Positions 52-59,352 of a stretch of DNA of 64,000 bases are shown piece after piece. The translations under genes and the position numbers were made by a program. This stretch comes from Ruegeria spongiae. GTDB taxonomy: Bacteria > Pseudomonadota > Alphaproteobacteria > Rhodobacterales > Rhodobacteraceae. The notes beneath the pieces are model-generated. The model had not been told where the DNA came from and searched no databases. It saw only the letters and a program-made list of their open reading frames with translations. Position 1 is the stretch's first letter, and the number at the start of each line of letters is the position of its first letter. The stretch lies in contig NZ_JAMFMB010000023.1 of the NCBI RefSeq assembly GCF_023502395.1, forward strand, positions 1 through 64,000, given 5' to 3'.

Positions 52-927
52 TCAGAGATTATCAAGCCAGTTGTTCAGCATCCGAAACAACCGGCGTCGA
101 TCAGCTTCATATGTAAACGTGTGGTCGCAATCCGAGAAATAGTGAAGCTCCAGACGGTCGCCGAAATTCACATCCGGCAATGCGTCCAATATTTGGCGGC
201 GATAATTGTGTTGATAGCTGTGGCCGCCCGAGAAAATGGCCAGAATGGAAATCCCATTATTCACCATCTTTTGGTAAGCAGATTGCAAGTAGCTTACCGT
301 TTCGGGAGTTTCCATATCTTGCCTCGAAAACTGTTCTCTAACCGGTGGCGGAGGTGCATCGCCTTTTGCAACTTTGTGCCGCACCCGCTTCCAGAACCGC
401 CCTTTTCCGATCAGGAAGTTGGTCCAGACTACCGGCTGTTTCAACCGCCTGAACTTATCAAGCACATGGAACCAGCGCGTCCTTGGGATAGACGGATCCA
501 TCAGAACCACTCCGGACACGCGGGCGTCGTCGCCGCTGTAGACTACCGAATGATCCGCGCCAGAACAAAGACCAACCAGAACGACCCTGTCACATTTGAG
601 GTTTGCCTCGGTCCAGTCGATCACCTCACGAATCCCGCTACAATTTTCTTCGAGTGGCGACCGATCGTCGCGCTGTGCCGGGCTGTCACCAATTCCAGCA
701 AAATCGAAACGCACCACGGAATAGCCACGCTCCGCCAAGCGCCGGGAAAGCTTGGTGTACATTCGGTGGTGGCCAACCCTATGGATGATCCCCGTATTGA
801 AAATGATGATCGCCGGGCGATTGCTGTTGTCCGCAGGTCTTGTAACGATCCCACAAAGAGCGCGGTCACCTCCGAATCGAACGACCCGTTCCAGTATGTT
901 GGGACGTGCCGGGGACTGAACGGTCAT
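52..927 (-). CDS. alpha/beta hydrolase, Cys at nucleophile elbow
   Basis: Predicted 291-residue alpha/beta hydrolase, last gene of the minus-strand NRPS/PKS operon. The start at 927 is chosen because its ATG overlaps the stop of the preceding hydrolase (ATGA), which points to translational coupling; an upstream in-frame codon would add 21 residues inside that gene. The nucleophile elbow reads VGLCSGAD, so the central position of the G-x-S-x-G pattern holds Cys rather than Ser. A typical late Asp/His region is visible (SDCDHTF). The sequence resembles the hydrolases that accompany exosortase-A systems, but no exosortase is nearby. Its place after a terminal NRPS module that has no thioesterase makes it a candidate for product release or editing; that role is an inference. 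Confidence 0.85.
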   Translation of the reverse strand: MTVQSPARPNILERVVRFGGDRALCGIVTRPADNSNRPAIIIFNTGIIHRVGHHRMYTKLSRRLAERGYSVVRFDFAGIGDSPAQRDDRSPLEENCSGIREVIDWTEANLKCDRVVLVGLCSGADHSVVYSGDDARVSGVVLMDPSIPRTRWFHVLDKFRRLKQPVVWTNFLIGKGRFWKRVRHKVAKGDAPPPPVREQFSRQDMETPETVSYLQSAYQKMVNNGISILAIFSGGHSYQHNYRRQILDALPDVNFGDRLELHYFSDCDHTFTYEADRRRLFRMLNNWLDNL

Positions 928-1721
928 GTCATCCACTCGACTATTCGTTGCAAAGCCTGCACGGGCACCACACCCGCATTGTTGGGCCAATCCTCACGCC
1001 AAGCAGCGCGGCATTCGATATGCTCAAGATCGACCATTGGCTTTCGCTCGTGCAAGGCAACTCGAAATTGATCGTGACTGTCCAGGTTCGTAGACTCGAT
1101 AACCAGCAGATCATTGGGATATTCGCGGATATGTGGCAGCAAGTCCAATCTGCGCATCTCTGCCTCCATCGCCTCGGTCAATGGAAACCCACAGATCTCG
1201 TGTCCGCCACCAATTTCTGCCGGTCGCTTTGGCGGCGGCCTGGCTCCGATTGGCATATTCGACGCGGTCTGGAACAGCGAATCTACGTATTCTTTTCCGG
1301 AAATCACCGGATCCCAGAGAACCAGGCGCTTTGTTGACCGCGGGCTTTGCGCTGCTTTCCGCGCCGCAAGATAAGCACCAAAGCGTAGCCCGATCACTGA
1401 CACATCTTCAGCGCCGGACATATCCTTGAGCTCGACCTCGGCCGCATTGATATCATCGAGCCATCCGGATATGCTGCCTTCCTCGCATTCACCGCCCGAA
1501 TCGCCGGTGCCAAAATAATCGAATCGAAAGACGTGGAACCCTGCCTCGGCGAGATTTTCGGCAAGTTTGGTTAGAGACCGGTGCGCCGGGATGTACTCGT
1601 GGCCCCACGGATAACAGATCAGGACAGATTTTCTGCCGCCCACGCCTGCGCGTGCGGCGTGGTAGACTCCGAATAAGCGTCGTCTCGAACTGCCAAAGAA
1701 AACTGGGATCATGTTGAACAA
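924..1721 (-). CDS. alpha/beta hydrolase, Arg at nucleophile elbow
   Basis: Predicted 265-residue alpha/beta hydrolase, 17 bases downstream of the last NRPS and overlapping the next hydrolase by four bases. The elbow reads VIGLRFGAYLA, with Arg where the catalytic Ser of a G-x-S-x-G hydrolase should be. GLRxGA elbows are known to me from exosortase-A-associated hydrolase family 2, so the substitution may be a family trait rather than decay. An N-terminal oxyanion-region sequence (ICYPWGHEY) and a DYFGTGDS segment fit the fold. Co-expression with the assembly line suggests a role in chain release, transfer or binding; whether it is catalytic is unclear. Start choice is weakly supported by the upstream sequence. 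Confidence 0.82.
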   Translation of the reverse strand: MFNMIPVFFGSSRRRLFGVYHAARAGVGGRKSVLICYPWGHEYIPAHRSLTKLAENLAEAGFHVFRFDYFGTGDSGGECEEGSISGWLDDINAAEVELKDMSGAEDVSVIGLRFGAYLAARKAAQSPRSTKRLVLWDPVISGKEYVDSLFQTASNMPIGARPPPKRPAEIGGGHEICGFPLTEAMEAEMRRLDLLPHIREYPNDLLVIESTNLDSHDQFRVALHERKPMVDLEHIECRAAWREDWPNNAGVVPVQALQRIVEWMT

Positions 1722-1738
1722 TAAATGCCTGGTCGGAA

Positions 1739-4700
1739 CTACTGGGAGAACTTTGCCGCGATCTGACGCAAATTTTGAAAGAACATGACACGGGGGTCAA
1801 GCTCAATGCCGAACTGCGTGCGAAGTTGCTTTGCAACTCTTAGCGTAAGTAACGAATGCCCGCCGATCTCAAAGAAATTGTCCGTCGCCCCAACCTGATC
1901 CAATTCCAGAACATCTTGCCAGATCCGTGCCAGTTTTTCTTCCATGCCAGCGCGCGGAGCTTCGAAAACCTGTTCCTCCATCTGATGCGCAAACGGACTC
2001 GGCAGCGCTTCGCGATCCAGCTTGCCGTTCGGCGTCATCGGAAATTCCGGAAGATCGACGATCAGAGAGGGGACCATGTATCCCGGGAGTCGCTCGCGGA
2101 GATTATGACGCACCTCACTCGCCGTGACTTCGTGATCCCAGCCATAAATGACATAAGCCACCAACCGACGATCGTCGTGGTCCGCGTCATGTACAGCCGC
2201 CGCCGCTTCTTTGATTCCAGGCACCTGCAACAGAGCGGCTTCGATTTCACCCAGTTCAACACGAACACCACGAATCTTTATTTGATGGTCGCGCCGGCCC
2301 AGATGCATCAAGTTCCCGTTCACCATCCAGCATCCGATATCTCCAGTACGGTATAGCCGCCCTTTATCAAGCGGATTATCGATGAACTTCTCTGCTGTTA
2401 GTTCGGCTCTGTCCAGATACCCAATGGCCACGCCAGCGCCGCCGATGCAGATCTCGCCCTGAACCCCGATCGGCGTCAGTTTTAGACTTTCATTCAGAAC
2501 AACGACCTGCGTATTGTCCAGAGGGCGACCAATGCTAATCGGGTCAGACCCGGGCTGAACATAGGTTGCTGTGGAATAGATTGTCGTTTCGCTCGGACCA
2601 TAGCCATTCCAAAGCGTACCAACCTTTTTCAAAAGCCTATCCGCCAGATCGCGGGTCAGTGGCTCACCACCGGTGATGGCGCGAACATGGTCTCCACCCG
2701 ACCAATCGGCCTCAAGCAACAATCGCCACGCAGACGGAGTGGCCTGAACAACCGTCGCACCGGTGTCGGCAAGGGCTTTTGCCAACGCAAAGCCATCTGT
2801 TGCAACATCGCGACTTAGCAATTCGATGCGCGCACCGACGCTCAAAGGCAACAGTAGTTCGACAGCGGAAATGTCGAAGGAAACCGTCGTTGATGCAGCG
2901 ACAATATCTTCCTTGCCAAGGCCGGGCTCTCGCCGCATCACTGCAAAAAGATTTGCCATTGCTCCATGAGTGATCTGGACTCCTTTTGGTGCGCCGGTCG
3001 AGCCCGAAGTATAGATCACCTGAGCACGGTCTGCCGCCGCTGCACGTACGGTCGGGTTGTTGGTCTCTTGCCCCGTCCATGGCGGGTCATCTTCGCAAAC
3101 GATCAGCGTGGTTGACCCTGTGTCAAAACCAAACCCGTCTGCGGTTCCGCGATCCGCCAGTATCGCCGCAGCACGGCAATCGGACAGTAAGTATCTGACC
3201 CGTTCCGCCGGAAATTGCGGGTCGATCGGTATAAAAGCTGCACCAGACTTTAGAATACCTAATTGCACAACAGAAAGGTCGATCGACCGATCAAGGCATA
3301 GGCCTACCAAATCGCCCGTACCGATCCCCTTAGATGCCAGATGAAGCGCCAGTTGATTGGCCTTTGCGTTAAGCACACCATAAGTTATCGACCGATCTTC
3401 GAATCTGACCGCAATACGGTCGGGCTCAGATTGAGCAACATCCTCGAAGCTTTCAACAAATAGCGGAACATGTGTTGTGACTTCGGAACCCTGTGAAAAC
3501 CCGGCGAGGAGTTCCGCCTCCTTTGTCGATACGAGCGGAATCTCGGCGACCGAAAGCCTTGGATTCTTGGAGGCGTGACGAAGGATTTCTTCAAGGCTGT
3601 TCAAAATCCTCTCAAGTGAGGACCGAGCAAATATGTCGCTACGGTATTCGATTGATCCAACCAGTTGGTTGTCGCGCATATGCGTGAACCAGGTCATATC
3701 ATGTACCGCCCCCCCACCGTAGATCGGTTCAGACTGACCATCGCCCGCATTCTGCATAACCACCGCTATCTGGAACAGGGGCGATCGATTCATGCTGCGT
3801 GCGGGTTGCAGGCGCTCTACGACCATTTCAAACGGAACCTGGCAATGGGGATGGGAATCGAGAACGGCTGCCTTTGCTGACGCCAGAACGTCGCTGAAGC
3901 TCATGTCTCCTTTGACGTTGAGGCGTAAAACCTCGGTATTCACAAAAGGTCCGATGATCTGTTCGAGTTCCGGTTGATCACGAACCGCAATCGAGTTTCC
4001 TAGCAACAAATCACTTTGACCGGTATAGCCATATAGCGCAACAGCGCAGGCGGCGAGCAGGCACATATAGACCGAGGTGCCCTCTTGCCTGACCAGCGCT
4101 TGAATGTCCGCAGTCAGATCATGATCCCAGGCAAATGAGATACTGTTCCCGCGGCCAACCAGATCCGGCACGAAATCTGCCGGAAAAGAGCAGAGGCCGG
4201 GACTGCCGCTTAAACGGTCAACCCACCAATCGATATGAGCCTCCAGACGCTGTGAGTCCAAAGCCGCACGCGACCATGCGGCATAATCGGCGTAGTCCAG
4301 ATTTGGTGACGTCTGCGAATACTTCGGAACGGCCAGCGCCCGACCGATATTGCTTTGCAACAGACTCAACGACCAATGATCCAGCGCGATATGATGAGCC
4401 GAAACAAGCACAGCCACGCCGTTCTGCCCGAGATCGAACACCCCGAACCTTACCGGCGGTTCGTCGGCCAGACGAAAGGGTCGACCGGTATGTCCCTCGA
4501 TCTCTTTCAGGATGCTGTCGTGCTGTTCTTCGACACCAAGATTGCTCAGGTCGAATTCTGCTATTTCGACCTTTTCAACACCGACTTCCCGCCCGGCAAG
4601 ACCCGTATCGGCTTCAAAATACAACGTCCTGAGGATCGAATGCTGACTACAGACCTCGCGGATTGCACCCGGATACTGCGCCGCAGGATGTTTGCTGCCC

Positions 4701-4996
4701 AAAGGCCACGCGGTGACAATGTTGTACTCGGTCGCTTGCGGCGATAGTTGCTGCAAGATCCATATGCGCTCCTGAAAATGCGAGAGCGATATCTGGCCCT
4801 TTGACGGTCGAGGTACCAAGGCGGGCCCTGCTTCCTCTTTCAGAAGCGCTATCAAGGCCTGCTTGTGATCAGACAGGGCGTGACGCAGGTCATCCGTGAT
4901 CGCGCCCACCGGGGCCTCGGCCTTCAAATCTTCTCCTGCGAGAGAAATCGTGATTCCACGCGCACGAAAATCCGCCAGAAGCCTCGAAGCCGTCAA
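1739..4996 (-). CDS. NRPS module: TubC docking-C-A-PCP (terminal module)
   Basis: Single-module non-ribosomal peptide synthetase of 1085 residues. Order: TubC_N-type docking domain (about 1-50), condensation domain (about 65-490, with HHIALDHW near 198, so HHxxxD is intact but the usual following Gly is His), adenylation domain (about 500-1000; YTSGSTGAPKG, YGPSETT, YRTGD, catalytic Lys in NGKLDR) and a carrier domain with GGHSL near 1047. The protein stops about 30 residues after the carrier Ser, so there is no thioesterase, reductase or terminal condensation domain. Reading the ten pocket positions by eye gives D-I-V-Q-I-G-G-I-Y-K, which matches no code I know; the DI-x-Q-x-G frame is close to glycine codes. 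It starts with TTG, overlapping the stop of the PKS gene (TTGA), behind a strong GGAGGAG. Confidence 0.95.
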   Translation of the reverse strand: MTASRLLADFRARGITISLAGEDLKAEAPVGAITDDLRHALSDHKQALIALLKEEAGPALVPRPSKGQISLSHFQERIWILQQLSPQATEYNIVTAWPLGSKHPAAQYPGAIREVCSQHSILRTLYFEADTGLAGREVGVEKVEIAEFDLSNLGVEEQHDSILKEIEGHTGRPFRLADEPPVRFGVFDLGQNGVAVLVSAHHIALDHWSLSLLQSNIGRALAVPKYSQTSPNLDYADYAAWSRAALDSQRLEAHIDWWVDRLSGSPGLCSFPADFVPDLVGRGNSISFAWDHDLTADIQALVRQEGTSVYMCLLAACAVALYGYTGQSDLLLGNSIAVRDQPELEQIIGPFVNTEVLRLNVKGDMSFSDVLASAKAAVLDSHPHCQVPFEMVVERLQPARSMNRSPLFQIAVVMQNAGDGQSEPIYGGGAVHDMTWFTHMRDNQLVGSIEYRSDIFARSSLERILNSLEEILRHASKNPRLSVAEIPLVSTKEAELLAGFSQGSEVTTHVPLFVESFEDVAQSEPDRIAVRFEDRSITYGVLNAKANQLALHLASKGIGTGDLVGLCLDRSIDLSVVQLGILKSGAAFIPIDPQFPAERVRYLLSDCRAAAILADRGTADGFGFDTGSTTLIVCEDDPPWTGQETNNPTVRAAAADRAQVIYTSGSTGAPKGVQITHGAMANLFAVMRREPGLGKEDIVAASTTVSFDISAVELLLPLSVGARIELLSRDVATDGFALAKALADTGATVVQATPSAWRLLLEADWSGGDHVRAITGGEPLTRDLADRLLKKVGTLWNGYGPSETTIYSTATYVQPGSDPISIGRPLDNTQVVVLNESLKLTPIGVQGEICIGGAGVAIGYLDRAELTAEKFIDNPLDKGRLYRTGDIGCWMVNGNLMHLGRRDHQIKIRGVRVELGEIEAALLQVPGIKEAAAAVHDADHDDRRLVAYVIYGWDHEVTASEVRHNLRERLPGYMVPSLIVDLPEFPMTPNGKLDREALPSPFAHQMEEQVFEAPRAGMEEKLARIWQDVLELDQVGATDNFFEIGGHSLLTLRVAKQLRTQFGIELDPRVMFFQNLRQIAAKFSQ

Positions 4997-7900
4997 ATGA
5001 CTATCTCCTCCATTGCGTCGTCATCGCCATCCTCAAATCCTGAAATTCCCAATTCGGTTTCAATGCGCGTTGCCATTTCACGAATGGTAGGTCCGTCAAA
5101 CACGTCACGCAGCGTCAGCTTGACGGACGCAATCACATCCAGCCGCGAAATGAGCCGGGTTGCCATCAGGGAATGCCCCCCCAACTCGAAGAAATTGTCG
5201 TCGGGTCCCTCCAGCTGTGCGCCCAGCAATTCGATCCAAACAGCCGCAATTTTTTTCTGAAATTCTGTTTCGAAATTTGCATGCGCCGTAAGAACAGAAT
5301 CGTCAAGCGCAGCGGGTTCCAGCACATCTGTCGGCACGGCTTCGACAAACTCGCCATGCAGCCGGGATCGCAGAACGCTCTTGATGGTCGCAAGCGTATC
5401 GGCCAAGTCGTAATTGGTGACAACGAGCCGCTGTGCACCGCTTGCGAGCCCACCAAGGAATATTTGCGCTGCCATATCGGGATCAATCAGATCGTCGTCG
5501 CCATCACGCAGACGCGCCGCCATTCCGACGCGCGCCCACCCTCCCCAATTGAAGGTGATGACATGTTTCCACGCCTGCGGACGCTCCAAACTCTCGGGCC
5601 AGAAATCGAAAAATGCATTTGCCGCCGAGTAATCCATCGCCCCCGCCGCCGGCAGGATCGAATTGATCGATCCGAACAACGCAACAAAGTCGAGCGGCGT
5701 ATCCTTAAACACGTCTGCGATCGCCCGAACACCAGCCGCCTTGGGTGACAGCACGTTGTCAAATGAATCCTCGTCCATCAGCGCCGAAAGCTTGTTCGCG
5801 CCCAGAACACCGGCCGCATGAACGATGCCATCGACCGGCCCCCATTCCTCGGCGATACGATCTGACAATCGCCTGAGACCGACCCGATCGTTCGCATCCA
5901 GCGCGACGACCATGATCTCGGCGTCCGTCTCTTCTATGGTCTTGAGTTCTTTCAGGATCGCTGATTTGGGATGATCATCGGCAATCGCTGTTTCCCACTC
6001 TTCCCGTGGCGGTAACGTCGTGCGCGCTGTCAATACCAGCCGTGCATTTGCACGCTGTGCCAAATGCCGGGCGATTGTCAGACCAACGCCGCCCAACCCT
6101 CCGGTAATCAGATAAACGCCCTTTGCGCGTAGGGGAACCTGCAAGTCCGACGGTTCAATATCCAGATCAATCTCGGAATATGCGCGGTGCCATCGGCTGC
6201 CATTTCGCACGGCAGAGACGAGTTCGGGTTCGAACCGCAGGCACTCCATCGCCAAATCCTGCGCTGCGGATTCGGGACATGCAGGATCAAGATCGATCTG
6301 ACGGGCATGAACCTTTTCGGACTCTGCGTTCATTACAAGAACTTGACCCGCAACCACGCTGTGATCCGGGGCGATGACCGGTTCACCCAATACGCTGCAG
6401 GTACCCGAGGTCTGCACCACAACCCGGACCGCCTGATCGGTGGAAAAACGCTCCACAGCCAGCCCGACTTTACGCAAGATCTGAAACAGCTGCGACGTAT
6501 CTTTGCCAGAATGGGGGGCTACAACCACCGTATTGATGGGATCGGTCAGTTTTTCGAACGGGTCGTCCTTGTTTTCGTCGATAGCGAGTTCAACCACCTG
6601 TCCGGCAACCAACCCTGCATTTTGGAGCGCATTGGATACCGCGGCGCCAAATTCTGGGTCATCAGCCAGAATGACCCAACTCCCTTCATGCTTTTGAATA
6701 GTTTGTACCTTGGGCGACATCACCCAGGTCGGGTTGCTGATACAGGTCCGGTTGCCGATCAGTTGGGTGGGCCGGTCCTTCGCTGACATCGAAGAATTTG
6801 TCGTGGCCTGCGATACGTCTGGGTCGATCCAGAAGCGTTTTCGCTGAAACGGATATGTCGGCAAGGGAACGCGGCGGCTTTCCGGCGCGCCGCGTAGCAA
6901 AGCCAGGTCAACGCGGGCGCCCGCGCTCCATAAGCGACCCGCTGCATCCAGAAGCGCTGACCTCTGTGTCATTGAATCTTTCGGATGTGCCTGCGTCGAC
7001 GCAATGCGATCCTGCCAACCCTTGAGGTTCATCTGAGCCAGATTATTCAAGGTTGTACCGGGGCCAACTTCCATCAAAAACAGAGAATCGTCTTCTGCCA
7101 GCTTGCGCAATCCCGACGCAAAACGGACCGTTCCGCGCAAATGCTGCGCATAATAGTCCGGCGATACCGCCTGTTCGCCGGTGATCCAGTCCCCGGTCAC
7201 ATTCGAAACATAGGGCCTCTCCGGCGGGCTTAGCGTGATCTTGCCGACTGCGTCGCGAAATGCGTCAAGTACCGGCTCCATCATTCGGGAATGAAACGCG
7301 TGCGACGTGTGCAGAAGCCGACAAACCACATCGGCACTTTCCAACCGTCCGATGACATCGGTTACGGCCTTTGTCTCACCAGAGATAACTGTCATATCAA
7401 CTGCATTTTCGGCTGCGATGTCGACCTCCTCTCCAATCCGTGACCGCAGCTGACCTTCGGGCAGTTCGATCGCGGCCATCGATCCAACAGCCACGGACTG
7501 CATCAACCTGCCTCGCTCGGCGACCAGCTTGAGCGCGGCCTCAAGCGACATGACCCCCGCTAGATGCGCTGCGACATACTCGCCGATGCTGTGCCCGATC
7601 ATCGCAGATGGAACCACTCCATAGCTCCGCAATAATTCAGAGAGCGCATATTCCACCGCAAAAAGTGCGGGCTGGGTCAACCAGGTCTGCGTCAGATCGG
7701 CCTTTGACCCGGATGCAAGCGCGGCTGTGAGATCCAAATCCAGAACCGGGCGCAAGATCTCCGAGCACCGGTCCAGAGCCGTGCGGTATACGGGTTCGTT
7801 GTCGTATAGCTGCGAACCCATTCCTGAGTGCTGACTGCCCTGCCCGCTGAACATGAATGCGACGCGACGCTCTCCTCCTAGGTGGCGTACACCTCGTACC

Positions 7901-12922: not shown

Positions 12923-13305
12923 TTTAGAAACCGCAACCGGTCTGAATGAATAGTCAGACGACTCCCTAGAACACGCAAACAAAAAATTATCCAGTGCCGC
13001 CGCATTGGCGAGCGCATCAAGTTGAAACAGTTCGCCAGAACCAAGTCAAGCCGCAACACGTCCGGGCAGCGCCGCGCTTTCCCCCGCAGACCGGCAGGGA
13101 ACGTGATAAAGGTACGATCCTACCATAGCAGCCTGGATTTCAAGCCCCATTCAAAAGCCAGACTCGGGTCCTAGCTGCCAGGCACTTAAGAATGTACCAT
13201 GTCGAAAACACATCAATTCCACGACACAATGTATCCGGAAAAAGTCTTTTGTATCTCATAGCGATATCTTGATACATTGGATTTAGCGGGCGCGAGGCCA
13301 GACGA
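12923..13305. promoter_or_regulatory. Divergent promoter region between the two biosynthetic operons
   Basis: About 380 bases separate the NRPS gene (leftward) from the phosphopantetheinyl transferase gene (rightward). No open reading frame with a recognisable product lies here. The part nearest the rightward gene is AT-rich and contains an inverted repeat (13227-13279). Both operons are probably driven from here, but I see no convincing -35/-10 pair. Confidence 0.5.
13227..13279. repeat. Inverted repeat, possible operator
   Basis: CAATGTATC at 13227-13235 and its exact reverse complement GATACATTG at 13271-13279 flank a 35-base spacer that holds a further related half (TTGTATC). The repeat lies 26 bases before the start of the phosphopantetheinyl transferase gene, in the divergent region. 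Spacing would suit a dimeric or looping regulator, or a long hairpin leader. No regulator gene is present inside the cluster. Confidence 0.45.
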
Positions 13306-14067: not shown

Positions 14068-14247
14068 GTACACAGACTTCGCCTCTTTGTGCGGTCGATT
14101 GTGGAGGCCCTCTTCCACCCGTCTTTTAACAGGGGTTAACATTCCGAAGCAACAAAAGTAACGTCGTCCTGATAAGGAAAATCTACAGTAAGCAGTTGGT
14201 ATTAGCCGCTGTTGCCGGTTTCGGCGTGTTGGAGCGGAAACGAATTC

Positions 14248-16791: not shown

Positions 16792-16796
16792 CTGGT

Positions 16797-42700: not shown

Positions 42701-45700
42701 TCATTGTGCAGTTCGCCATGGCGCGCGCTAAGAATGGCGCACATGCCTTCACGATCTCAGCACAGCGGGACGCCGACACCTGGACGCGGCTCTGCGAAGG
42801 ACGGATACTGACCTCGACCAGCCCTGCCGACATGATCGCACTGGAAGCGCTTCGCACGCGGCTCAGCCACCGCGTCGATGTCGCGGAATTCTATTCAGCG
42901 CTGGACGGCCTGGGCCTAGCGTTCGGTCCGGGATTTCGCGGCGCAACCGAGATTTTCGAAGGCAAGGGGCAAGCGCTCGCACGTGTCGAGCGCCCCGATG
43001 TGATTACCGCACAGGCCTCTGGACTGTTGGTTCACCCGGCCCTTCTTGACTCAAGCCTGCACGTAATCGCTGCGGCTCTGTCGATGGGATCACTCGAGAA
43101 CCCGTACCTTTTGCTGTCCGTCAGCAGAATCGAATCCCTGGCCCCGCTGCCAGACCGGTTTTGGTGCCACGTATCGGTGGACAAACCGGATACGATCGGT
43201 CAGCGCGATGCCTTCGTCGCGCAGTTGCAACTGATTGACGATGCCGGTCAGGTCCTGATGCGGTTTCGTGACATCAGCCTGAGGCGGGTAAGTCGTCAGG
43301 ATTTCGCAGCTGTCGATCTACCGCCAGAGGTTTCAGGCATCATTCACGAGGTCATCTGGAACAGGGAATCACCGCAGCTCACCCCCGGCGAACTGGCCGA
43401 ACTGATTTTGCCGAACCTGGACAAGATGGCGCGCGAAAACGGGCTTTACGACACTTATCCCACATTTCAGAAACGCCTCGATCAACTCTGCTCGGCCTAT
43501 ATCATCAATGCGCTGAAGTCCCTTGGGCTTCGCTTTGTGGTCGACGAGGTTCTGGTTGCGGAAAACATGATGCGTGACCTGACGGTGCTACCGGCGCATC
43601 GCAGACTGTTGGTCAGGATGTTACAGATATTAGGCGAAGATGGGGTTCTCGCTGAACTTCCAGGCGGGTGGCGTGTACTCAGATCCCCTGAGCCGACCGA
43701 TGCGGAGAACTTGTGTCGCGATCTGCTCTCCGAGTTTCCGGGCTGCGAACCGAAAATCTCAGTGACCGCCCGATGCGCGCGCGAATTGGCGTCCGTTCTG
43801 TCGGGCGCTGTCGACCCGCTTACGCTTCTGTTCCCGGAAGGGTCGCTTGCGCAAACGGAAAAACTTTATTCCGACGTGGCCCCTGCAAGAACCTACAACG
43901 CGGCGATTGCGGGTCTGGTCGCTCAGGTCTCACGACGCACGCCCGACGCCAGGCGCCTTCGCATTCTGGAGATTGGAGCGGGAACAGGCAGCGCAACAGC
44001 TGGAATCCTCGAAGGATTGGGAGAACGCAGCTATGACTATCTTTTTACCGATATCTCACCCCTGTTTCTGAACGCTGCGCGACAGCGATTCAGAGATTTG
44101 TCCAACGTCAGGTTTGCAGCACTCGATATCAGTCAGGATCCGCTTGAACAGGGCCTGGACAAGTCAGGTTTTGATGTCGTGATCGCGGGCAATGTGGTGC
44201 ATGCCACCAAGGATGTCTCCCGGACGCTGGGGAATGTTGCAAGCCTGATGGCCCCCAACGGCAAGTTGATTCTTTTGGAGGGCACCGCCCCGCAACGCTT
44301 TGGCGATTTGACCGTTGGCATGCTGGATGGATGGTGGGCCTACACCGACACCAATTTGCGATCCTATGCCCTGATGCCTAGGGACAGCTGGATTTCCACC
44401 CTGCATGAATGCGGCTTCGAAGACGCCATCGCGCTCCCGGGTTCGGACGCGCGGGGAACCTTGCAGGAACAGGCCATATTCATCGCGAACTGGCCCGCCA
44501 AGCGGCAATTGCTGGGCTACTCTCTGATCGTAGGCGAGGGAAAATTCGCTGCGAAGCTGGCCGACCAGATCAAGGCCAGCGGCGCGAGCGTTGTCTCAGT
44601 CCCTGCAAACCCAGTAAAAATCGCACAGTCCTTGAACGCTCAGGATTTTGACCGGATCGTTTTTCTTGGCGCGATGAATACCGTACTCTCGGATGATATG
44701 CCCGTCGATCAGATCTCCGCCGACCAAAAAATAGTTCTGAACGGTGCTCTGGAACTTGTTCAAGCCGTTGCGCGACTGAAACATCCACCAAAGGAACTGG
44801 TTTTCGTCACGGAGGGTGGACAGGCGACCCATACCGGAGAAAATGCAAACCCTGCGCAGGCAACGCTTTGGGGATTTGCCCACACCGTGGCGATGGAAAA
44901 TCCCGAATTGAAGTGCCGACGCATTGATTTGCAGGCTGGGAAAGTGTCTGTCGCGCATCTTGTGACCGAACTCATGCGGCAGGACGGCGAAACCCAGGTG
45001 GCAATACGAGAGGGCCAAAGGCTGCTGCGCCGCCTGCGCAACTGTGGTTCGGACTTGTCGCCGTCAAAACCCGAATTCCCCTCGGATGAGACGGTCCTGA
45101 TCACCGGAGGCCTCAACGGGCTGGGCCTTCTTGTTGCGGAATGGACTGTCGAGCACGGCGCGCGCGATGTGGCACTCCTTGGCAGGAGCAGCCCCTCTTC
45201 CGCAACCGAAAGCGCAATCGTCCGGATGCGTGATGCCGGTGCTGAAGTTTCCGTCCTAAAGGCCGACATCGGCAAAGAAGAAGAATTGAAAATTGCCCTT
45301 GATCAGATCGCGGCTCTGCCGCCGGTCAAAACTGTCATTCACGCGGCTGGTGCGCTTGATGACGGTGCGCTGTTATCGCTGGACTGGCCAAAATTCGAGA
45401 CAGTGCTCAACGCAAAATTACGAGGAAGCTGGTTACTGCACAGCCAACTTCCGGATTTGAGGAACTTCGTGATGTTCTCATCTGGTGCATCGCTTGCAGG
45501 ATCGGCCGGACAAGCAAACCATGCGTCAGCCAATGCATTTGAGGATGCATTGGCGTGGTATCTGCGCGCGAAAGGTCATTCCGCGCTCACCATCAATTGG
45601 GGCCTGTGGGGTGATGTCGGCGCGGGTGCCGAGATCGGCGTTGGCAAGGATGCGGATGTCCTGCAAAAAATCGACCCGATGATCGGGCTTGCCGCTCTTG

Positions 45701-46305
45701 GGGCTGCGATGTCGGCATCTTCGAACAAGCAACGCCCGCAGCTCGCAATCCTTGATGCCGACTGGCAACAACTTGCACACGGTACGCACGCAAATGCCGT
45801 ATTTTTTTCCGGGATGGCAGGCGCGGTTCACAGGCCAGCGGCGTCCGAACCCGCTCAGGTAAAGGCCGTGCAGCAATTGCGCGAACAACTGTCCCGGACA
45901 CCGGCAAACCGACGGCGCGCAGTGCTTCTCGACGCTATCCGCACCCATGCCCGCGCAGTGCTCGGTCTTGCACCAGAAGATGTGGTTGAAGCGCATGAGC
46001 CGCTGAACCAGTTGGGTTTGGACAGTCTGATGGCTGTACAGCTAAGAAACATTCTCAGCGATGCCGCAGGGCTACCCCTGCCCGCTACAGTCATATTTGA
46101 TCACCCGACCATCGCTACGCTCACGGATTTTCTGTTGGAGCAACTCGATGTTAAGGACGCCGATGAAATGACCGGGGCAGCCGTCTTTGAAACCGGGCCC
46201 CGGGGTGAACCCGCTGGTACGGAAACCTCAGACATGACCGAAGAAGAACTCGCTCAGCACCTGTTGCGAGAACTGGATCGCCTGGATCAAGGACATAACC
46301 AATGA
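39718..46305 (+). CDS. PKS module 5: KS-AT-DH-cMT-KR-ACP
   Basis: Module of 2195 residues, ATG overlapping the preceding stop behind AGGGAGAACC. N-terminal docking helices (about 5-35); KS (Cys206 in DTACSSS); AT (GHSLGEF near 646; QAFHS 746-750, a minor variant of the malonyl motif); DH (His946 in HRIHGGLAVP; LDSSLH); C-methyltransferase (LEIGAGTGSAT near 1417); KR (ITGGLNGLG near 1794; LDD after HAAG, so B-type; catalytic Tyr position is His1935 in ANHASANAF); ACP (GLDSLMA near 2103). No ER, so an alpha-methyl-alpha,beta-unsaturated intermediate is expected. The C-terminal MTEEELAQHLL is again of the acidic docking type. Confidence 0.95.
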   Translation: MSDFLDRISQFSQKKLTLLAAQLRDRVEALETRDKIAIVGVGCRFPGGIDSPENYWDVLMAQRDVISEVPTDRWDVNALYDPDPERAGKITTRFGGWLDDVDRFDPKFFSISPREAQSLDPQQRLLMEVTWRALENAGLPAASLSGSKTGVFCGISGVDYHSILRAAGTENYDAYMASGVAHSVASGRLSYFLGVHGPSLSIDTACSSSLVAIHEAVQSLRRRECDVALAGGSNLILTPETTIALSRAQMMAPDGRCKTFDARANGFVRSEGCGMIVLKRLSDAQNDNDPIIAVIRGSAINQDGRSNGLTAPNGVAQEAVLRAALKDASVGPGDIGFVEAHGTGTALGDPIEVHALGAALCSDRGSSAPLRIGSVKSSIGHLEAAAGVASLIKVALSVHHGRLPGQANLETLNPLIQWDRLNLEPQHKTGPWPEATTAMAGVSSFGFSGTNVHMILEKAPKPPEIQTPTERGTHLLTVSARSSEALVELKSLRAAEVTGALEVPNIAYSANAGRDHFPHRFATVSKNGVEAYSALRDTGPSATVFSGTAPRTPPGLAFVFTGQGSQYAGMSKVLYDRNPVFRSTLDRFDRLLANELSQSLIEILHGTASDINNTAMAQPALLAVELALAELWQSWGLRPKMVLGHSLGEFAAACVADILSPEDALRLVAERGRLMAAAPGDGAMVSVVANEAHIRDRLSKHPGRLSIAAVNGPSNVVISGDRAVVDQFCAKLDADGIHTTALQVSQAFHSPLMDPILDRFEAFAANFDFDRPKIDLISNVSGKRAAPHSITARYWRDHIRSTVRFQDGLQTAKDAGCDLLLEIGPHPVLMTMAQLNSDSDGPEWVASLCRGEDDETRMLAALAQLYVKGAEVNWQSFDAPWNRSIVPVAGHPFQRDRYWVEEPSKPELAQPASTSFPGRKISQSISDDVLLEMQFNLTQMSWIRDHRIHGGLAVPSPVFMSWALQVGRDVLGSETATLEQFTMHRPLHLEEDHSVIVQFAMARAKNGAHAFTISAQRDADTWTRLCEGRILTSTSPADMIALEALRTRLSHRVDVAEFYSALDGLGLAFGPGFRGATEIFEGKGQALARVERPDVITAQASGLLVHPALLDSSLHVIAAALSMGSLENPYLLLSVSRIESLAPLPDRFWCHVSVDKPDTIGQRDAFVAQLQLIDDAGQVLMRFRDISLRRVSRQDFAAVDLPPEVSGIIHEVIWNRESPQLTPGELAELILPNLDKMARENGLYDTYPTFQKRLDQLCSAYIINALKSLGLRFVVDEVLVAENMMRDLTVLPAHRRLLVRMLQILGEDGVLAELPGGWRVLRSPEPTDAENLCRDLLSEFPGCEPKISVTARCARELASVLSGAVDPLTLLFPEGSLAQTEKLYSDVAPARTYNAAIAGLVAQVSRRTPDARRLRILEIGAGTGSATAGILEGLGERSYDYLFTDISPLFLNAARQRFRDLSNVRFAALDISQDPLEQGLDKSGFDVVIAGNVVHATKDVSRTLGNVASLMAPNGKLILLEGTAPQRFGDLTVGMLDGWWAYTDTNLRSYALMPRDSWISTLHECGFEDAIALPGSDARGTLQEQAIFIANWPAKRQLLGYSLIVGEGKFAAKLADQIKASGASVVSVPANPVKIAQSLNAQDFDRIVFLGAMNTVLSDDMPVDQISADQKIVLNGALELVQAVARLKHPPKELVFVTEGGQATHTGENANPAQATLWGFAHTVAMENPELKCRRIDLQAGKVSVAHLVTELMRQDGETQVAIREGQRLLRRLRNCGSDLSPSKPEFPSDETVLITGGLNGLGLLVAEWTVEHGARDVALLGRSSPSSATESAIVRMRDAGAEVSVLKADIGKEEELKIALDQIAALPPVKTVIHAAGALDDGALLSLDWPKFETVLNAKLRGSWLLHSQLPDLRNFVMFSSGASLAGSAGQANHASANAFEDALAWYLRAKGHSALTINWGLWGDVGAGAEIGVGKDADVLQKIDPMIGLAALGAAMSASSNKQRPQLAILDADWQQLAHGTHANAVFFSGMAGAVHRPAASEPAQVKAVQQLREQLSRTPANRRRAVLLDAIRTHARAVLGLAPEDVVEAHEPLNQLGLDSLMAVQLRNILSDAAGLPLPATVIFDHPTIATLTDFLLEQLDVKDADEMTGAAVFETGPRGEPAGTETSDMTEEELAQHLLRELDRLDQGHNQ

Positions 46306-49300
46306 CCGATCGTCCTACCCCCGATACCTATGCTCTGTTGCGTCGCTCGGCCGACACGATAAAGCGGCTGGAAGAGCAGCTCGCAAAGGCGCAATCCAGC
46401 GCCCACGAGCCAATCGCGATCATCGGCATCGGCTGCCGCTTTCCAGGCGGTGCGAATACGCCCGAAAAACTTTGGTCGCTGGTTGAGCAGGGTCAGGATG
46501 CCGTCACCGAAGTCCCCAAAGAGCGTTGGGATCTCGACGAAGTCTATGACCCGGACCCGGACGCGCCCGGCAAAGCATATACGCGCTGCGGCGGTTTTCT
46601 TGATCAGGTCGACAGTTTCGATGCTGCGTTCTTCGGCATAACGCCGCGCGAGGCGGTAAATCTCGATCCCCAGCAACGGTTGCTATTGGAGGTGTCTTGG
46701 GAAGCTCTGGAACATGCAGGGATCGCGCCGTCTTCGATATCGGGAACCCAGACCGGCGTATATGTTGGTCTCACCACACATGATTATGCGATTATGGCGG
46801 CGGCGGCGCATGATCATCTGACGGCTGACGCCTATTCCGCATCCGGATCGTCACATTCAATTGCCGCTGGTCGATTGTCTTATTTCTTTGGTCTTCACGG
46901 GCCCAGTTTTGCCGTTGATACCGCGTGTTCGGCCTCGATCGTGTCGGTGCATTCGGCGGTCCAGGCGTTACGCAGCGGCGAGGTTGATCTTGCGCTGGCA
47001 GGTGGTGTGACGCTGACGCTCTCCGAGTTCGGCGCAATTTTAACTTCGCGCGCCCGAATGATGTCTTTCGTGGGACGGTGCCAGACCTTCGACGCCGATG
47101 CGGACGGGTATGTTCGCGGCGAGGGATGCGCCATGATTGCATTGAAACGCAAATCGGATGCGCTGCGCGACGGGGATCGCGTTCTGGCATATATTCGGGG
47201 CTCCGCGTTGAACCAGGACGGACGCAGCACCGGGATGACCGCGCCCAACGGGCAGGCCCAAGTCAAGGTCCTGCGCGCCGCGCTGCGCGATGCCGGGGTG
47301 TCTCCTGATGACATCAGCTATGTCGAAGCGCATGGCACCGGAACGTCGTTGGGCGATCCGATCGAAATCAAGGCGCTGGGAGAGGTCTTTGGAAAGCGAT
47401 CTGCCGACGCTCCGCTTCATGTGGCGTCGATCAAGACCAACATCGGCCACACCGAAGGCGCCGCCGGTGTCGCGGGGATCATCAAGACGGTCATGGCGCT
47501 GCAACACAAACAAATCCCGGCGCATCTGCACTTCAACACGCCGAACCCACTGATTCCCTGGGACAACCTGCCAATCGCCATCCCCAGGCAGACGATAAAA
47601 TGGCCCGGCACCAAAGACGTTCCGCGCCGCGCGGGCGTCAGCTCGTTTGGTTTCAGCGGAACCAATGGTCATCTCATTCTGGAAGAAGCGCTCGAGACCC
47701 AAGCCTCGACACCAGCGCCCGCATATTCGGATCCGGTATTGCTCGCTATCTCCGCGCGTAACGAAGCCGCCCTGACCGACTCCGCGACCAACCTGGCAGA
47801 ACATCTGCGACAGCACCCGCACATATCGATCCGTGAGGCTGCCGCAGAACTGGCGTTGGGCCGATCTCATCTGACCGCGCGCACGGCTCTTGTCGTCGCG
47901 GACCGCGACGATGCGCTTGAACAGCTTGACGCCATTTCGGCCGGTCACCGCCCTCACAAAGCGGCATTCGGGTCAGTACCGGGTGGAGAGCCGCCTGAAG
48001 TCGCCTTTCTCTTTTCCGGTCAGGGTGCGCAGTTTGCCGGTATGGGGCGGCAGCTTTATGAAAGCGAGCCGGTCTTTCGAGCGGCGCTGGACCGCTGCGA
48101 CGCGCTTCTTGCCGACAAGCTGGATAAGCCGCTGTTGTCGGTCATTTTTGGCTCTGACGAGGCCATCGATCCATCGCTGCTGAATGATACGGCTTACTCG
48201 CAACCCGCCTTGTTTTCACTTGAATGGTCGTTGTCGGAACTTTGGCGATCCTGGGGGATCGTGCCCGCAGCGGCAGTCGGGCACAGTGTCGGCGAATATA
48301 CCGCCGCCTGCGTTGCGGGTGTCTTCAGCCTGGAAGAAGGGCTGACGCTGATCGCCGAGCGTGGTCGGCTCATGAGCAGCCTGCCGAACGGCGGCGGAAT
48401 GGCCGCCGTTTTTGCTCCCGAGGCGGAGCTGCGCGATCTTCTGGCCAAGCACGAACAGTATAGCTCGATCGCGGCGGTCAACGGCCCGAACAACACAGTG
48501 ATTTCGGGGCGGCTGGATGTTCTGGAACATATCCTGTCTGATCTTGAGCGGCACGAAATTTCTGCCCAGAAGCTGGTTGTTTCGCACGCGTTCCATTCGC
48601 CGCTGATGGATCCGATCCTCGATCAGCTTGAACGCACCGCTTCTCAGATTCAATATAGAGAACCGCAGATTTCACTGGTTTCCAACGTCACTGGCGAGAT
48701 TGCCGATGGGTCTACATATTCGGCAGGATATTGGCGGTGTCACGCCCGTGAGGCAGTGCGGTTTGCCAACGCAATCTCAACGCTGCATCAGGACGGGTTT
48801 GCAGACATTGTCGAGCTTGGCCCTTCCACCACGCTGACTGGGCTGGCGCAACAATGCCCAAACGCCGACAAGGCCAACTGGTTCGCGTCACTGCGCAAGG
48901 GCACCGCAGACCAGACCCAAATGCTGGAAACTGCGGCGAAACTCTATGCGCGCGGTCAAACCCTGAACTGGGCCAACCTGTTTCCGGATTTGTCCAGACC
49001 TGGAGCGCGCGCAGCCCTGCCAACCTACCCCTTCCAGCGCGTGCGCTATTGGCGCGAGACCGCCGCACGCACCCTGCGGTCGACCTCTTCGTCCGGCCAC
49101 CCGTTTATGGGCGAGGCCATTCCAGGCGCAATCACATCCATTTACGGTTCCATCGGCTTGAAATCCACGCCGTGGCTCGGTGATCATCGTCTGTTTGGTG
49201 TGGCACCATTTCCAGCAGCAGGCCTGCTGGACCTTGCCCTCTCAGCCGCCCGAACTGCGGAAGGTCACGACAATGTAGCACTTGAGGATGTTCACATTCT

Positions 49301-52300
49301 CGAAGGTCTAATTTTGCCGGAAAGCGATGACCTGCAGCTACAGATCGTTTTCAAACCCGGAAAGGGCGGCATAAAAACACTCAAGATTTACAGCCAGATC
49401 CATCAACAGAATGCCGGGGCGGAATGGCGGCACAACATGTCGGCGCGGGTTCTGATCAACAAATCTGTACACGCTTCCACTGCCTGCCCCCCTGCGCCAG
49501 CATCGACGCAGACGATCGAACCCGAACAATTTTACACGCTTTTCGAAGATTTAGGCGTCAAATACGGTCCTGCCTTTCAGCCAGTACGTGCAATTCGTCA
49601 CACCGATACCGAAGTCTGGGGTGAGCTTGAATTGTCGAAAGACCTGAACACACGCGGGTTCACAATGCACCCTGCCCTTCTGGATGGGTGTGCCCAGTTG
49701 ATCGCAAGCGTCATGCAGGCAGGCGACGTTTATATGCCGGTCTCGGTCCAAAAGTTCGAAGTGATGGCAGATGTGCCCGAACGGGTCTCTTGTCACGTTG
49801 TCGACACACCTACCGGTGACCCCGATCTTCAACGCTGCAGCCTCACGGTGTTCGCCCCAGACGGCACTCAGATCGCCCAAGTGAGCGATCTGGAATTCCG
49901 GAAAGTCGAGAAGCGGGCACTGATGCAGGTGGTCTCACGACAAGCAACTCAGGACTGGCTGTTTGATGTGCATTGGCAGCCGGTTCCGCTCGGCGATACC
50001 AATAGATCCGAACTGCCGGGACGCTGGCTGATCCTCAGCGACCGGTCCGGTGTCGGGGATCGGCTGGTCCGCAAACTGACCGAAATGGGCGCCGATGTAG
50101 ATCTCGTTCCGCAATCCGACGAAAGCCGGGATCAGTTGCCGCAGATTCTGCAAAAAGCCGATGAGGCAACTGACCCATTGCATGCGGTCGTAAACCTCTG
50201 GCCGCTTGATGAGACAGACGCCCCCGATGTCATCAGCCTGGAGAAGGCACATCGTGACATTCTTGTCCCTGCCCTACACCTAGTGCAATCATTGCCCAGT
50301 CGACCTCGACTCTGCTTCGTGACCCGCGGTACCCAATCCGTCATGGGCGAGGCCCCCAATCTGGCCAGCGCACCGCTCAACGCGTTCGCGGGGGTCGTCG
50401 CCTCGGAAATTCCGCAAGCGCATTGTCTGCGGATAGATCTTGACCCGTCTGAAAACCCGCATGAAGATGACATGCTGTTTCAATGTCTTTGGACTCCGGA
50501 CCGCGAAGATCAGGTCGCAATCCGAGGCGAGACCCGGTTTGCCGCCCGGCTGAAATCGGGTGAAACTGCGGCCATTGCTGAATCCGAGCCGGTATTGCTG
50601 GATGTTATCGAGCGCGGAACACTGGATGGGCTTACGTTTGTTCCATTGATGAGAGCAAAACCGCAGCACGACGAAGTCGAGATCCGGGTCGCGGCGACCG
50701 GGGTGAATTTCCGCGATGTGCTGAACACGCTGGGCATGTATCCGGGTGAACCCGGGTTTCTGGGCAATGAATGCGCGGGTATCGTGACTGCTGTTGGCGA
50801 CGCGACAACCGGCTTTGCCGTGGGCGACGAGGTTGTGGCGATGACCGATCGCTGTTTTGCAACCTACGTAATCGTGCGCTCGACGCTGGTCATCAAGAAG
50901 CCCGCGCATCTGACAATGGCACAAGCTGCGGCAACGCCGGTGGCCTATCTGACGGCGGAGTATGCGCTTTGCCAGCTTGGCACGGTGAAACCAGGCGATC
51001 GGGTTCTGATCCATGCCATCACAGGTGGCGTCGGATCTGCCGCAGCCCATATCGCCCGAAGACAAGGCGCGCGGGTGTTCGGCACGGCGGGCACCGCAGC
51101 AAAACGGGCAGAGGCACTTGCTCAGGGGGCCGAATACGTCGCAGACTCGAGGTCGCTGAGTTTTGTAGATGACATTCAGGCTGCAACGGGCGGCGAAGGC
51201 GTCGATTTCGTTCTGAATTCACTCGCCAACGAGTTCATCCCGGCCAGTCTTTCACTGCTCCGTCCTAGCGGACATTTTGTGGAAATTGGCAAGAATGATG
51301 AGTGGCATAGTGAGAGAGTCGCACAAGAGTTTCCGGGCATCAGCTACGACCAGCTCTATCTTGGTGAGGTCACAGCCACGAACAACCAGCTCATCTGTGG
51401 TATTCTTGAGCGGCTTTTCAGCCAGATTGAAGCTGGCGAGCTTCCACCGCCGGATGTCCGGGCCTGGCCTCTTGAGCAGGCCAAAGAGGCGTTTCGCTTT
51501 ATGGCCCAGGGCTTGCATAGGGGCAAAATCGTTCTGACGCAGACCCGACCGTCTCGCATCCACAGGGACGCAAGCTATCTGGTCACTGGGGGCTTGAAAG
51601 GGATCGGACTGCGAACGGCTCAATGGCTGACAGAGGCGGGCGCGACCAACCTCGTTCTTTTGGGGCGAACCGAACCGGACCAAATTACGCGCTCAATTCT
51701 GGATGATCTGAAGGGTCAGAGCATAACAGTGCTCGTGCGGTCGGTGGACGTGACCGACCAGAACGCCATGGCCGCGTTGATCGCTGAGATCGAAAGAACC
51801 ATGCCGCCAGTGCGCGGCGTGATTCACTGCGCCGGTGTCGTCGAAGATGCAATGCTAGCCGATCAGACATCAGAGACACTTGCGCGGGTCATGGCGCCGA
51901 AAGTGCGCGGCGGATATCTTCTGGACAAGCTGACCAGTCACATGACCCTCGATTTCTTCGTGACCTATGCATCTGGCGCCGGATTGCTCGGCGCCCCCGG
52001 GCAGGCCAATTATGCTGCGGCGAACGGATTTCTTGATGCATTGTCCCATGCCCGCCGCGCCCGCGGACTTCCAGCGCTCAGCGTGGATTGGGGAAGCTGG
52101 TCAGAGATCGGGATGGCGGCCAGGGTTGATGAAACCCATCAACGAAGATGGGCAGAGATGGGTCTCGCCATGATCGACCCGGATGCCGGCGTCCACATGT
52201 TGGAACACGCCCTTTTCGGCGCGACCTCTGCACAGGTCGCGATCCTTCCGATCACCAGAGACCGGCTGCCCCCCGACGCAAGACCCCTGCTGAGTGACCT

Positions 52301-52673
52301 CGTCACCCCACAGGGCGGGCAAGACACAGGCGTCAATGACGACGCTGATTTCATCGAGGTTCTGGCCACCTCCCCCGCCGAACAGCATGGCGACCTGATC
52401 GGCGACTGGCTGAACGCCACCGTTATCCGTGTCCTCGCCCTCGACGAACATACGGGTTCGGACAGAGATCGGTCGTTGATGGAATTCGGGATGGACTCGC
52501 TGATGGCGATGGAACTGCAAAACCGGATAGCCGCTGGATTGAACATCCGAATAACGTCAACTGAATTGCTGAAAGGCCCGACGCTCAATCAACTCGTTTC
52601 AGTCGCTCTGTCGGAACTGGCGGAGCATTTGAACGGCCCATCCACTGAAGGATGGGAAGAGATCGACCTCTGA
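46302..52673 (+). CDS. PKS module 6: KS-AT-DH-ER-KR-ACP, last plus-strand module
   Basis: Fully reducing module, 2123 residues, ATG overlapping the previous stop behind AAGGA. N-terminal coiled coil (about 8-35); KS (Cys209 in DTACSAS); AT (GHSVGEY near 662; HAFHS 762-766, malonyl type); DH (His962 in HRLFGVAPFP; LDGCAQ); ER (GVNFRDV; HAITGGVGS near 1571); KR (VTGGLKGIG near 1761; ASGAG; Tyr1904 in ANYAAANGF); ACP (GMDSLMA near 2066). It has no thioesterase, and its C-terminus is unlike those of modules 2-5: it ends STEGWEEIDL, resembling the EEIVI tail of the minus-strand PKS. This suggests hand-over to a TubC-type docking domain, that is, to the NRPS at 9449-12922. IS remnants follow within about 100 bases. 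Confidence 0.95.
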   Translation: MTDRPTPDTYALLRRSADTIKRLEEQLAKAQSSAHEPIAIIGIGCRFPGGANTPEKLWSLVEQGQDAVTEVPKERWDLDEVYDPDPDAPGKAYTRCGGFLDQVDSFDAAFFGITPREAVNLDPQQRLLLEVSWEALEHAGIAPSSISGTQTGVYVGLTTHDYAIMAAAAHDHLTADAYSASGSSHSIAAGRLSYFFGLHGPSFAVDTACSASIVSVHSAVQALRSGEVDLALAGGVTLTLSEFGAILTSRARMMSFVGRCQTFDADADGYVRGEGCAMIALKRKSDALRDGDRVLAYIRGSALNQDGRSTGMTAPNGQAQVKVLRAALRDAGVSPDDISYVEAHGTGTSLGDPIEIKALGEVFGKRSADAPLHVASIKTNIGHTEGAAGVAGIIKTVMALQHKQIPAHLHFNTPNPLIPWDNLPIAIPRQTIKWPGTKDVPRRAGVSSFGFSGTNGHLILEEALETQASTPAPAYSDPVLLAISARNEAALTDSATNLAEHLRQHPHISIREAAAELALGRSHLTARTALVVADRDDALEQLDAISAGHRPHKAAFGSVPGGEPPEVAFLFSGQGAQFAGMGRQLYESEPVFRAALDRCDALLADKLDKPLLSVIFGSDEAIDPSLLNDTAYSQPALFSLEWSLSELWRSWGIVPAAAVGHSVGEYTAACVAGVFSLEEGLTLIAERGRLMSSLPNGGGMAAVFAPEAELRDLLAKHEQYSSIAAVNGPNNTVISGRLDVLEHILSDLERHEISAQKLVVSHAFHSPLMDPILDQLERTASQIQYREPQISLVSNVTGEIADGSTYSAGYWRCHAREAVRFANAISTLHQDGFADIVELGPSTTLTGLAQQCPNADKANWFASLRKGTADQTQMLETAAKLYARGQTLNWANLFPDLSRPGARAALPTYPFQRVRYWRETAARTLRSTSSSGHPFMGEAIPGAITSIYGSIGLKSTPWLGDHRLFGVAPFPAAGLLDLALSAARTAEGHDNVALEDVHILEGLILPESDDLQLQIVFKPGKGGIKTLKIYSQIHQQNAGAEWRHNMSARVLINKSVHASTACPPAPASTQTIEPEQFYTLFEDLGVKYGPAFQPVRAIRHTDTEVWGELELSKDLNTRGFTMHPALLDGCAQLIASVMQAGDVYMPVSVQKFEVMADVPERVSCHVVDTPTGDPDLQRCSLTVFAPDGTQIAQVSDLEFRKVEKRALMQVVSRQATQDWLFDVHWQPVPLGDTNRSELPGRWLILSDRSGVGDRLVRKLTEMGADVDLVPQSDESRDQLPQILQKADEATDPLHAVVNLWPLDETDAPDVISLEKAHRDILVPALHLVQSLPSRPRLCFVTRGTQSVMGEAPNLASAPLNAFAGVVASEIPQAHCLRIDLDPSENPHEDDMLFQCLWTPDREDQVAIRGETRFAARLKSGETAAIAESEPVLLDVIERGTLDGLTFVPLMRAKPQHDEVEIRVAATGVNFRDVLNTLGMYPGEPGFLGNECAGIVTAVGDATTGFAVGDEVVAMTDRCFATYVIVRSTLVIKKPAHLTMAQAAATPVAYLTAEYALCQLGTVKPGDRVLIHAITGGVGSAAAHIARRQGARVFGTAGTAAKRAEALAQGAEYVADSRSLSFVDDIQAATGGEGVDFVLNSLANEFIPASLSLLRPSGHFVEIGKNDEWHSERVAQEFPGISYDQLYLGEVTATNNQLICGILERLFSQIEAGELPPPDVRAWPLEQAKEAFRFMAQGLHRGKIVLTQTRPSRIHRDASYLVTGGLKGIGLRTAQWLTEAGATNLVLLGRTEPDQITRSILDDLKGQSITVLVRSVDVTDQNAMAALIAEIERTMPPVRGVIHCAGVVEDAMLADQTSETLARVMAPKVRGGYLLDKLTSHMTLDFFVTYASGAGLLGAPGQANYAAANGFLDALSHARRARGLPALSVDWGSWSEIGMAARVDETHQRRWAEMGLAMIDPDAGVHMLEHALFGATSAQVAILPITRDRLPPDARPLLSDLVTPQGGQDTGVNDDADFIEVLATSPAEQHGDLIGDWLNATVIRVLALDEHTGSDRDRSLMEFGMDSLMAMELQNRIAAGLNIRITSTELLKGPTLNQLVSVALSELAEHLNGPSTEGWEEIDL

Positions 52674-54361: not shown

Positions 54362-54433
54362 CCTGGTCTCCCTTGTTACCATTTGATGTTGTCTTGGCAC
54401 CTGAATTCATCAGGCAGCCACCTTTTTTTGTGC

Positions 54434-59346: not shown

Positions 59347-59352
59347 GCGGTA

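Follow-up and report, generated by a model that had tools for sequence, protein, structure and literature searches.

How does an assembly line that has neither a loading module nor an integral chain terminator start its product and let it go, and what might that product be? The question is raised by positions 52-52,673 of a stretch of Ruegeria spongiae DNA of 64,000 nucleotides, called the window below. There, open reading frame (ORF) listing and a Pfam scan find 14 genes that form a complete cis-AT line of polyketide synthases (PKS) and nonribosomal peptide synthetases (NRPS) in two divergent operons (Table 1). We consider it likely that the product is a C-methylated polyketide, destined for export and headed by a short aminoacyl group, that two alpha/beta-hydrolases, here named TE_C and HYD, release it in trans, and that the polyketide operons of such clusters are exchangeable. 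The cluster is ordinary in kind, a cis-AT PKS/NRPS line without loading module or integral terminator; its two notable features are the release pair and the operon exchange.

The right operon, on the plus strand, encodes in order a phosphopantetheinyl transferase (PPTase), a flippase, a type II thioesterase and PKS1 to PKS6. The left operon, on the minus strand, encodes NRPS1, PKS7, NRPS2, HYD and TE_C. The operons point apart from 12,982/13,306, and at many junctions, such as 21344/21347, 27769/27772, 39718/39721, 46302/46305 and 4993/4996, neighbouring ORFs share a few bases. A sequence-only reading of the window had placed a hybrid PKS/NRPS cluster in two divergent operons at exactly this location. 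Pfam domain calls bear out its seven single-module PKS proteins, its two single-module NRPSs (both TubC_N-C-A-PCP), its PPTase (PF01648), type II thioesterase (PF00975) and flippase (PF13440), and its PKS set between the two NRPSs, which is PKS7. The three C-methyltransferase modules it named are also present, but the non-reducing module listed after them, PKS3, the only such module, is itself one of the three. Missing from that reading were the two alpha/beta-hydrolases at the left operon end, the absence of loading and termination domains, and the family of at least nine clusters described next. The genome has 14 KS-like matches in all, and the cluster accounts for seven of them. Contig C36 and the window start at the same base; the left window edge is therefore a contig edge, and sequence left of 52 is not visible. 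The 64-kb window has no tRNA or Rfam element, and no sigma-70-like promoter was found in the divergent region, which says little for this organism.

The same gene set occurs in eight other genomes of marine Alphaproteobacteria: Heliomarina, Phaeobacter sp. 22II1-1F12B, Oceaniovalibus sp., Allosediminivita pacifica, an uncultured Roseovarius, Hyphomonas pacifica and two metagenome-assembled genomes (MAGs). Chance is excluded as an explanation of the arrangement, since each of the eight loci retains all 14 genes, or 13 in one case; the gene order within each operon is kept as well, and identities are 35-57%. This is a rare cluster family of at least nine members. A family-wide search of 395 genomes with PKS3 returned full-length homologues in three, the window's own included, while a flippase profile gave at least eight carriers among the species genomes scanned, a lower bound that rests on two peptide patterns. 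PKS3-like matches in G431, G016, G108, G136 and G015 were set aside as unrelated clusters, alike at the KS level only. Searches of a plasmid collection with PKS3 and NRPS1 returned only generic PKS/NRPS matches at about 40% identity or less, and viral contigs held no relative of the flippase. The open-access papers searched contain no description of the cluster; the earlier statement that it matches no named pathway holds for that literature, as support by absence only, with MIBiG outside the scope.

Every PKS has a KS, an integral AT and a carrier, and every NRPS has C, A and PCP domains. In the window the KS Cys-His-His, AT Ser-His, DH, cMT, C, A and carrier motifs are intact. The AT of PKS1 is predicted to be methylmalonyl-like both by its VASH motif and by its solved matches, where DEBS module 3 ranks first at 295 bits and CurL scores 157; the ATs of PKS3 and PKS6 are closest to CurL (251 and 350 bits). 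A supply of methylmalonyl-CoA is plausible, as the host genome encodes a crotonyl-CoA carboxylase/reductase. Loading modules are not obligatory, and some lines load the first KS directly. The cluster has none: PKS1 opens with a condensing KS (DTACSSS), and there is no loading AT-ACP, KSQ or ligase. A release domain on the last module is likewise common and not obligatory. Here the Pfam calls for NRPS2 stop at its PCP, with no TE, R or C domain after it for release. In the window the PKS5 DH retains its catalytic His, but in L042, L084 and L093 (Heliomarina, Oceaniovalibus, Phaeobacter) Gln stands in its place, so that products may differ at this step.

Docking features suggest how the proteins follow one another. 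PKS1 lacks an N-terminal docking domain, and PKS2-6 have docking-type N-terminal extensions. NRPS1 and NRPS2 each begin with a TubC_N docking domain (PF18563), while PKS6 and PKS7 end in acidic-hydrophobic tails, putatively for docking, that are conserved in all nine clusters (WEEIDL and MEEIVI, respectively, in the window). The layout of tails and TubC_N domains matches that of known pairs of beta-hairpin docking domains and short linear motifs (PMC9113145). From it we infer the order PKS1-6, NRPS1 (Gly), PKS7 (KR), NRPS2 (small residue), which the catalytic motifs also support. A-domain codes were read by motif, with the final Lys taken as the usual one. The NRPS1 code, DILQLGMIWK, is the same in all nine clusters, and we take it to be the classical glycine code of the Stachelhaus scheme. 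The NRPS2 code, DIVQIGGIYK, is constant across the nine clusters save for a Val to Ile change at one position in one MAG; with low confidence, this domain may take Gly or Ala. Among solved proteins, both A domains best match linear gramicidin synthetase A and other NRPS modules, which presumably include glycine-activating domains.

In the microsclerodermin line, a glycine NRPS and a KS-AT-KR module build 4-amino-3-hydroxybutanoate (GABOB) inside a polyketide-peptide. Both elements of such a unit are present here, a glycine-code A domain in NRPS1 and then the KS-AT-KR module of PKS7, with specificity judged from the code and order from operon order and docking tails. Microsclerodermin (msc) of myxobacteria differs in being a cyclic hexapeptide, made with more NRPS modules and halogenation (summarised in PMC6163206); the window cluster has no such genes.

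In the proposed assembly, an acyl starter would be loaded straight onto the KS of PKS1. The unit added by PKS1 would derive from methylmalonate and bear a hydroxyl as well as its C-methyl group; that added by PKS2 would come from malonate. The next three units would each carry an alpha-methyl group, as a beta-ketone from PKS3, in saturated form from PKS4 and as an enoyl unit from PKS5, and the unit from PKS6 would be reduced. Through its tail, PKS6 would then deliver the chain to NRPS1, at the TubC_N domain, for the addition of Gly; PKS7 would join malonate to the Gly and ketoreduce to give 4-amino-3-hydroxybutanoyl, then dock by its tail onto NRPS2 for addition of Gly or Ala. TE_C, as a Cys enzyme, with HYD as its non-catalytic partner, would free the chain from the last PCP in trans. 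The PPTase would prime the carriers, the type II thioesterase edit, and the flippase, a presumed exporter, move the product out. With a fixed head-group and release operon and polyketide operons swappable at the PKS6/NRPS1 docking junction, the tail would vary while the head is kept. The product inferred is lipid-like and undescribed: a C-methylated polyketide whose small amino-acid end is a 4-amino-3-hydroxybutanoyl-Gly/Ala cap. A complete linear formula was set aside, the starter and several KR outcomes being open.

Release is assigned to TE_C and HYD because no TE or R domain exists in the line. The Cys, Asp and His of TE_C are invariant in nine orthologues, as is the Arg at the HYD elbow. 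Homologues suggest that TE_C truly starts near 927-936, overlapping the end of HYD. The pair resembles exosortase A-associated hydrolases 1 and 2 (TIGR03100 and TIGR03101), which have the same adjacent hydr2-hydr1 order and the same Arg and Cys elbows. Unlike those pairs, HYD and TE_C lie within a PKS/NRPS operon rather than an exosortase locus, and as both miss the curated cut-offs, their membership in TIGR03101 and TIGR03100 was rejected. No exosortase gene occurs at the cluster; the sole EpsH-like match in the genome is on another contig, below cut-off. Pairs that agree in elbows and gene order lie in exosortase-A-type loci of other genomes, in one case immediately behind a carrier protein.

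A TE_C-like match occurs in 23 of 398 genomes sampled from the phylum, and every TE_C-like locus inspected also has a HYD-like part, either as a separate partner or within a tandem fusion of about 600 residues. Many genomes have a single ORF that joins HYD-like and TE_C-like domains, generally of about 570-650 residues and often with a Cys elbow in the second half (L149, L150, L155, L157, L158, L160-L164 and L166, with L160 longer). Besides the window, a PKS or NRPS gene adjoins the pair in two unrelated clusters, G846 and G763. A third case, G680, is uncertain: a TE_C-like frame follows a PKS, but the HYD-matching frame is doubtful. The G846 cluster, from an alphaproteobacterium (C1:1,664,195-1,703,745; L142-L144), is like the window in that a flippase diverges from an NRPS and that HYD (36%) and TE_C (39%), with elbows as here, come after this NRPS. 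It differs in its two-module NRPS and its neighbourhood, and PKS1-6 are absent from the stretch examined. The pair probably acts on carrier-bound thioesters and frees the chain in trans. Much more tentatively, and with doubt outweighing belief, we suggest that a Cys thioesterase (TE_C) and an Arg-elbow pseudoenzyme (HYD) make up an obligate two-protein release factor, shared by exosortase-A loci and several unrelated PKS/NRPS clusters, and that window-type clusters diversify by swapping whole polyketide operons against a fixed head-group/release operon.

Exchange of operons was examined with concatenated trees and approximately unbiased (AU) tests. In the PKS1-6 tree, Allosediminivita and Roseovarius join Hyphomonas and the MAGs. 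In the tree of NRPS1-PKS7-NRPS2-HYD-TE_C, and in that of PPTase, flippase and type II thioesterase, the same two join Heliomarina, Phaeobacter and Oceaniovalibus. Nearly all branches have support of 100/100, and AU tests reject the alternatives. Allosediminivita and Roseovarius also carry PKS1-6 on the other side of the NRPS operon. Judged by their sequences, the PKS1-6 operon and the NRPS/release operon differ in ancestry; the trees show what would be an exchange of operons between lineages at the PKS6/NRPS1 junction, a junction that must work afterwards. Recombination across such junctions is described for depsipeptide inhibitors of histone deacetylase (HDAC) (PMC13324335) and for cyanobacterial hybrids (PMC12184294).

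Three rival explanations can be set beside this account. Discordant trees could reflect strongly unequal rates or ancient paralogues with no exchange, and long branches are indeed flagged at the window row in both large trees. The conflict, however, lies with the short-branched Allosediminivita/Roseovarius pair, the log-likelihood differences are 3125 and 164, and these same two genomes are the ones with PKS1-6 relocated; we give this explanation little credence. The differing phylogenies, together with the differing arrangement in two genomes, would also fit two operons with a product each: PKS1-6 would make a polyketide or lipid, and NRPS1-PKS7-NRPS2 an N-acylated dipeptide, for which NRPS1 could take a fatty acyl-ACP. 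Such a division is improbable: the operons stand together in all nine genomes found, and PKS6, without a terminator, has a conserved putative docking tail like that of PKS7, with a matching TubC_N on NRPS1. A stronger competitor concerns release, which might be performed by the type II thioesterase or be spontaneous, for example by cyclisation, leaving HYD and TE_C as hydrolases for post-release tailoring or self-protection. The type II thioesterase is a complete PF00975 protein, and enzymes of this class can hydrolyse carrier-bound chains, one of them liberating N-acyl amino acids in assays (PMC13324335). We find this unlikely, yet not to the degree of the other two. HYD and TE_C come directly after the last NRPS, overlap each other, and adjoin that NRPS in all nine clusters, whereas the type II thioesterase belongs to the other operon and is apart from PKS1-6 in two genomes; in one exosortase locus, a related pair comes after a carrier protein.

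Several points count against the favored account of a complete line with TE_C/HYD release and exchangeable polyketide operons. All of its support comes from sequence. The release role of the pair rests on position, conservation and the absence of another terminator, and the type II thioesterase could in principle do the work; against TIGR03100 and TIGR03101, TE_C and HYD score 86.6 and 105.8 bits, with cut-offs of 168.45 and 202.75. No loading module is seen, and the NRPS2 A code is not a textbook code. KR assignments are shaky, because in all nine clusters Gly or Ala stands in place of the catalytic Ser of the PKS2 KR, making ketoreduction by PKS2 doubtful, and because His replaces the usual Tyr in the PKS4 KR of all nine and in the PKS5 KR of the window's clade only; the His variant also occurs in one PKS outside the family. 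For the trees, groups were picked after identities had been seen, in addition to the long branches mentioned above.

The depsipeptide HDAC inhibitor lines (FR-901375/romidepsin/burkholdac; PMC13324335) likewise join conserved and variable parts at a docking junction, with the beta-hairpin domain on the NRPS side. Their conserved part is the upstream pharmacophore machinery and their cap is variable, whereas the window family conserves the downstream NRPS and release genes and exchanges PKS1-6 upstream; gene content is unrelated as far as known. Exchange at a single docking junction amounts to a natural experiment in the recombination of PKS/NRPS parts. The release pair gives two "hypothetical equivalog" hydrolase families of exosortase loci a candidate function that can be tested. 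As a conserved cluster family of marine alphaproteobacteria that may make an undescribed polyketide-aminoacyl product, it can be screened now in named strains: Hyphomonas pacifica, Allosediminivita pacifica DSM 29329 and Heliomarina baculiformis.

Table 1. Genes of the cluster, with window positions, strand and basis of assignment.
Gene	Description	Position	Strand	Basis
TE_C	alpha/beta-hydrolase, Cys nucleophile elbow GLCSGAD, conserved DHTF	52..990	-	nearest NCBIfam TIGR03100 hydr1_PEP, under cut-off
HYD	alpha/beta-hydrolase, Arg at nucleophile position, GLR[FLV]GA	924..1721	-	nearest NCBIfam TIGR03101 hydr2_PEP, under cut-off
NRPS2	TubC_N-C-A-PCP, A code DIVQIGGIYK	1739..4996	-	Pfam; C and PCP motifs conserved
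PKS7	KS-AT-KR-ACP, malonyl-type AT (HAFH), putative C-terminal docking tail ...MEEIVI	4993..9456	-	Pfam, motifs
NRPS1	TubC_N-C-A-PCP, A code DILQLGMIWK	9449..12982	-	Pfam; code identical in 9/9 orthologues
PPTase	Sfp/HetI-type 4'-phosphopantetheinyl transferase	13306..14067	+	PF01648; NF042922 HetI below cut-off
Flippase	MOP-superfamily, presumed exporter	14248..15684 (ORF opens 14212)	+	PF13440; ATG 14248 agrees with homologue starts
Type II thioesterase	discrete, editing	15928..16791	+	PF00975
PKS1	KS-AT-KR-ACP, methylmalonyl-type AT (VASH), first extension module	16797..21347	+	Pfam; best solved match DEBS module 3 AT
PKS2	KS-AT-DH-ER-KR-ACP, KR catalytic Ser to Gly	21344..27772	+	Pfam, motifs
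PKS3	KS-AT-cMT-ACP, non-reducing	27769..32157	+	Pfam; AT nearest CurL
PKS4	KS-AT-DH-cMT-ER-KR-ACP	32129..39721	+	Pfam, motifs
PKS5	KS-AT-DH-cMT-KR-ACP	39718..46305	+	Pfam, motifs
PKS6	KS-AT-DH-ER-KR-ACP, putative C-terminal docking tail ...WEEIDL (for NRPS1)	46302..52673	+	Pfam; AT nearest CurL

Members of the family vary in minor ways. The PPTase of Oceaniovalibus looks decayed (L086, about 42864-43674 of G436:C19). Hyphomonas and the two MAGs have an extra TubC_N-C didomain fused at the front of NRPS1 (L089:417-5378). Most members also encode a membrane protein of about 290 residues, for which a Pfam scan gives no family. Its gene comes after PKS6 in three of them (Heliomarina, Phaeobacter and Oceaniovalibus), whereas in Allosediminivita, Hyphomonas and one MAG it separates PKS5 from PKS6; it is apparently decayed in Roseovarius, and the window has no ORF for it after PKS6. 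Beside PKS6 in the window, at 53231-63380 on the minus strand, is a block with no matches in register beside the other clusters. It looks catabolic, with a methionine-synthase-like gene, a cupin, four SnoaL-like genes, a LacI regulator, an SDR, a histidinol-dehydrogenase-like gene and a MalK-type ATPase.

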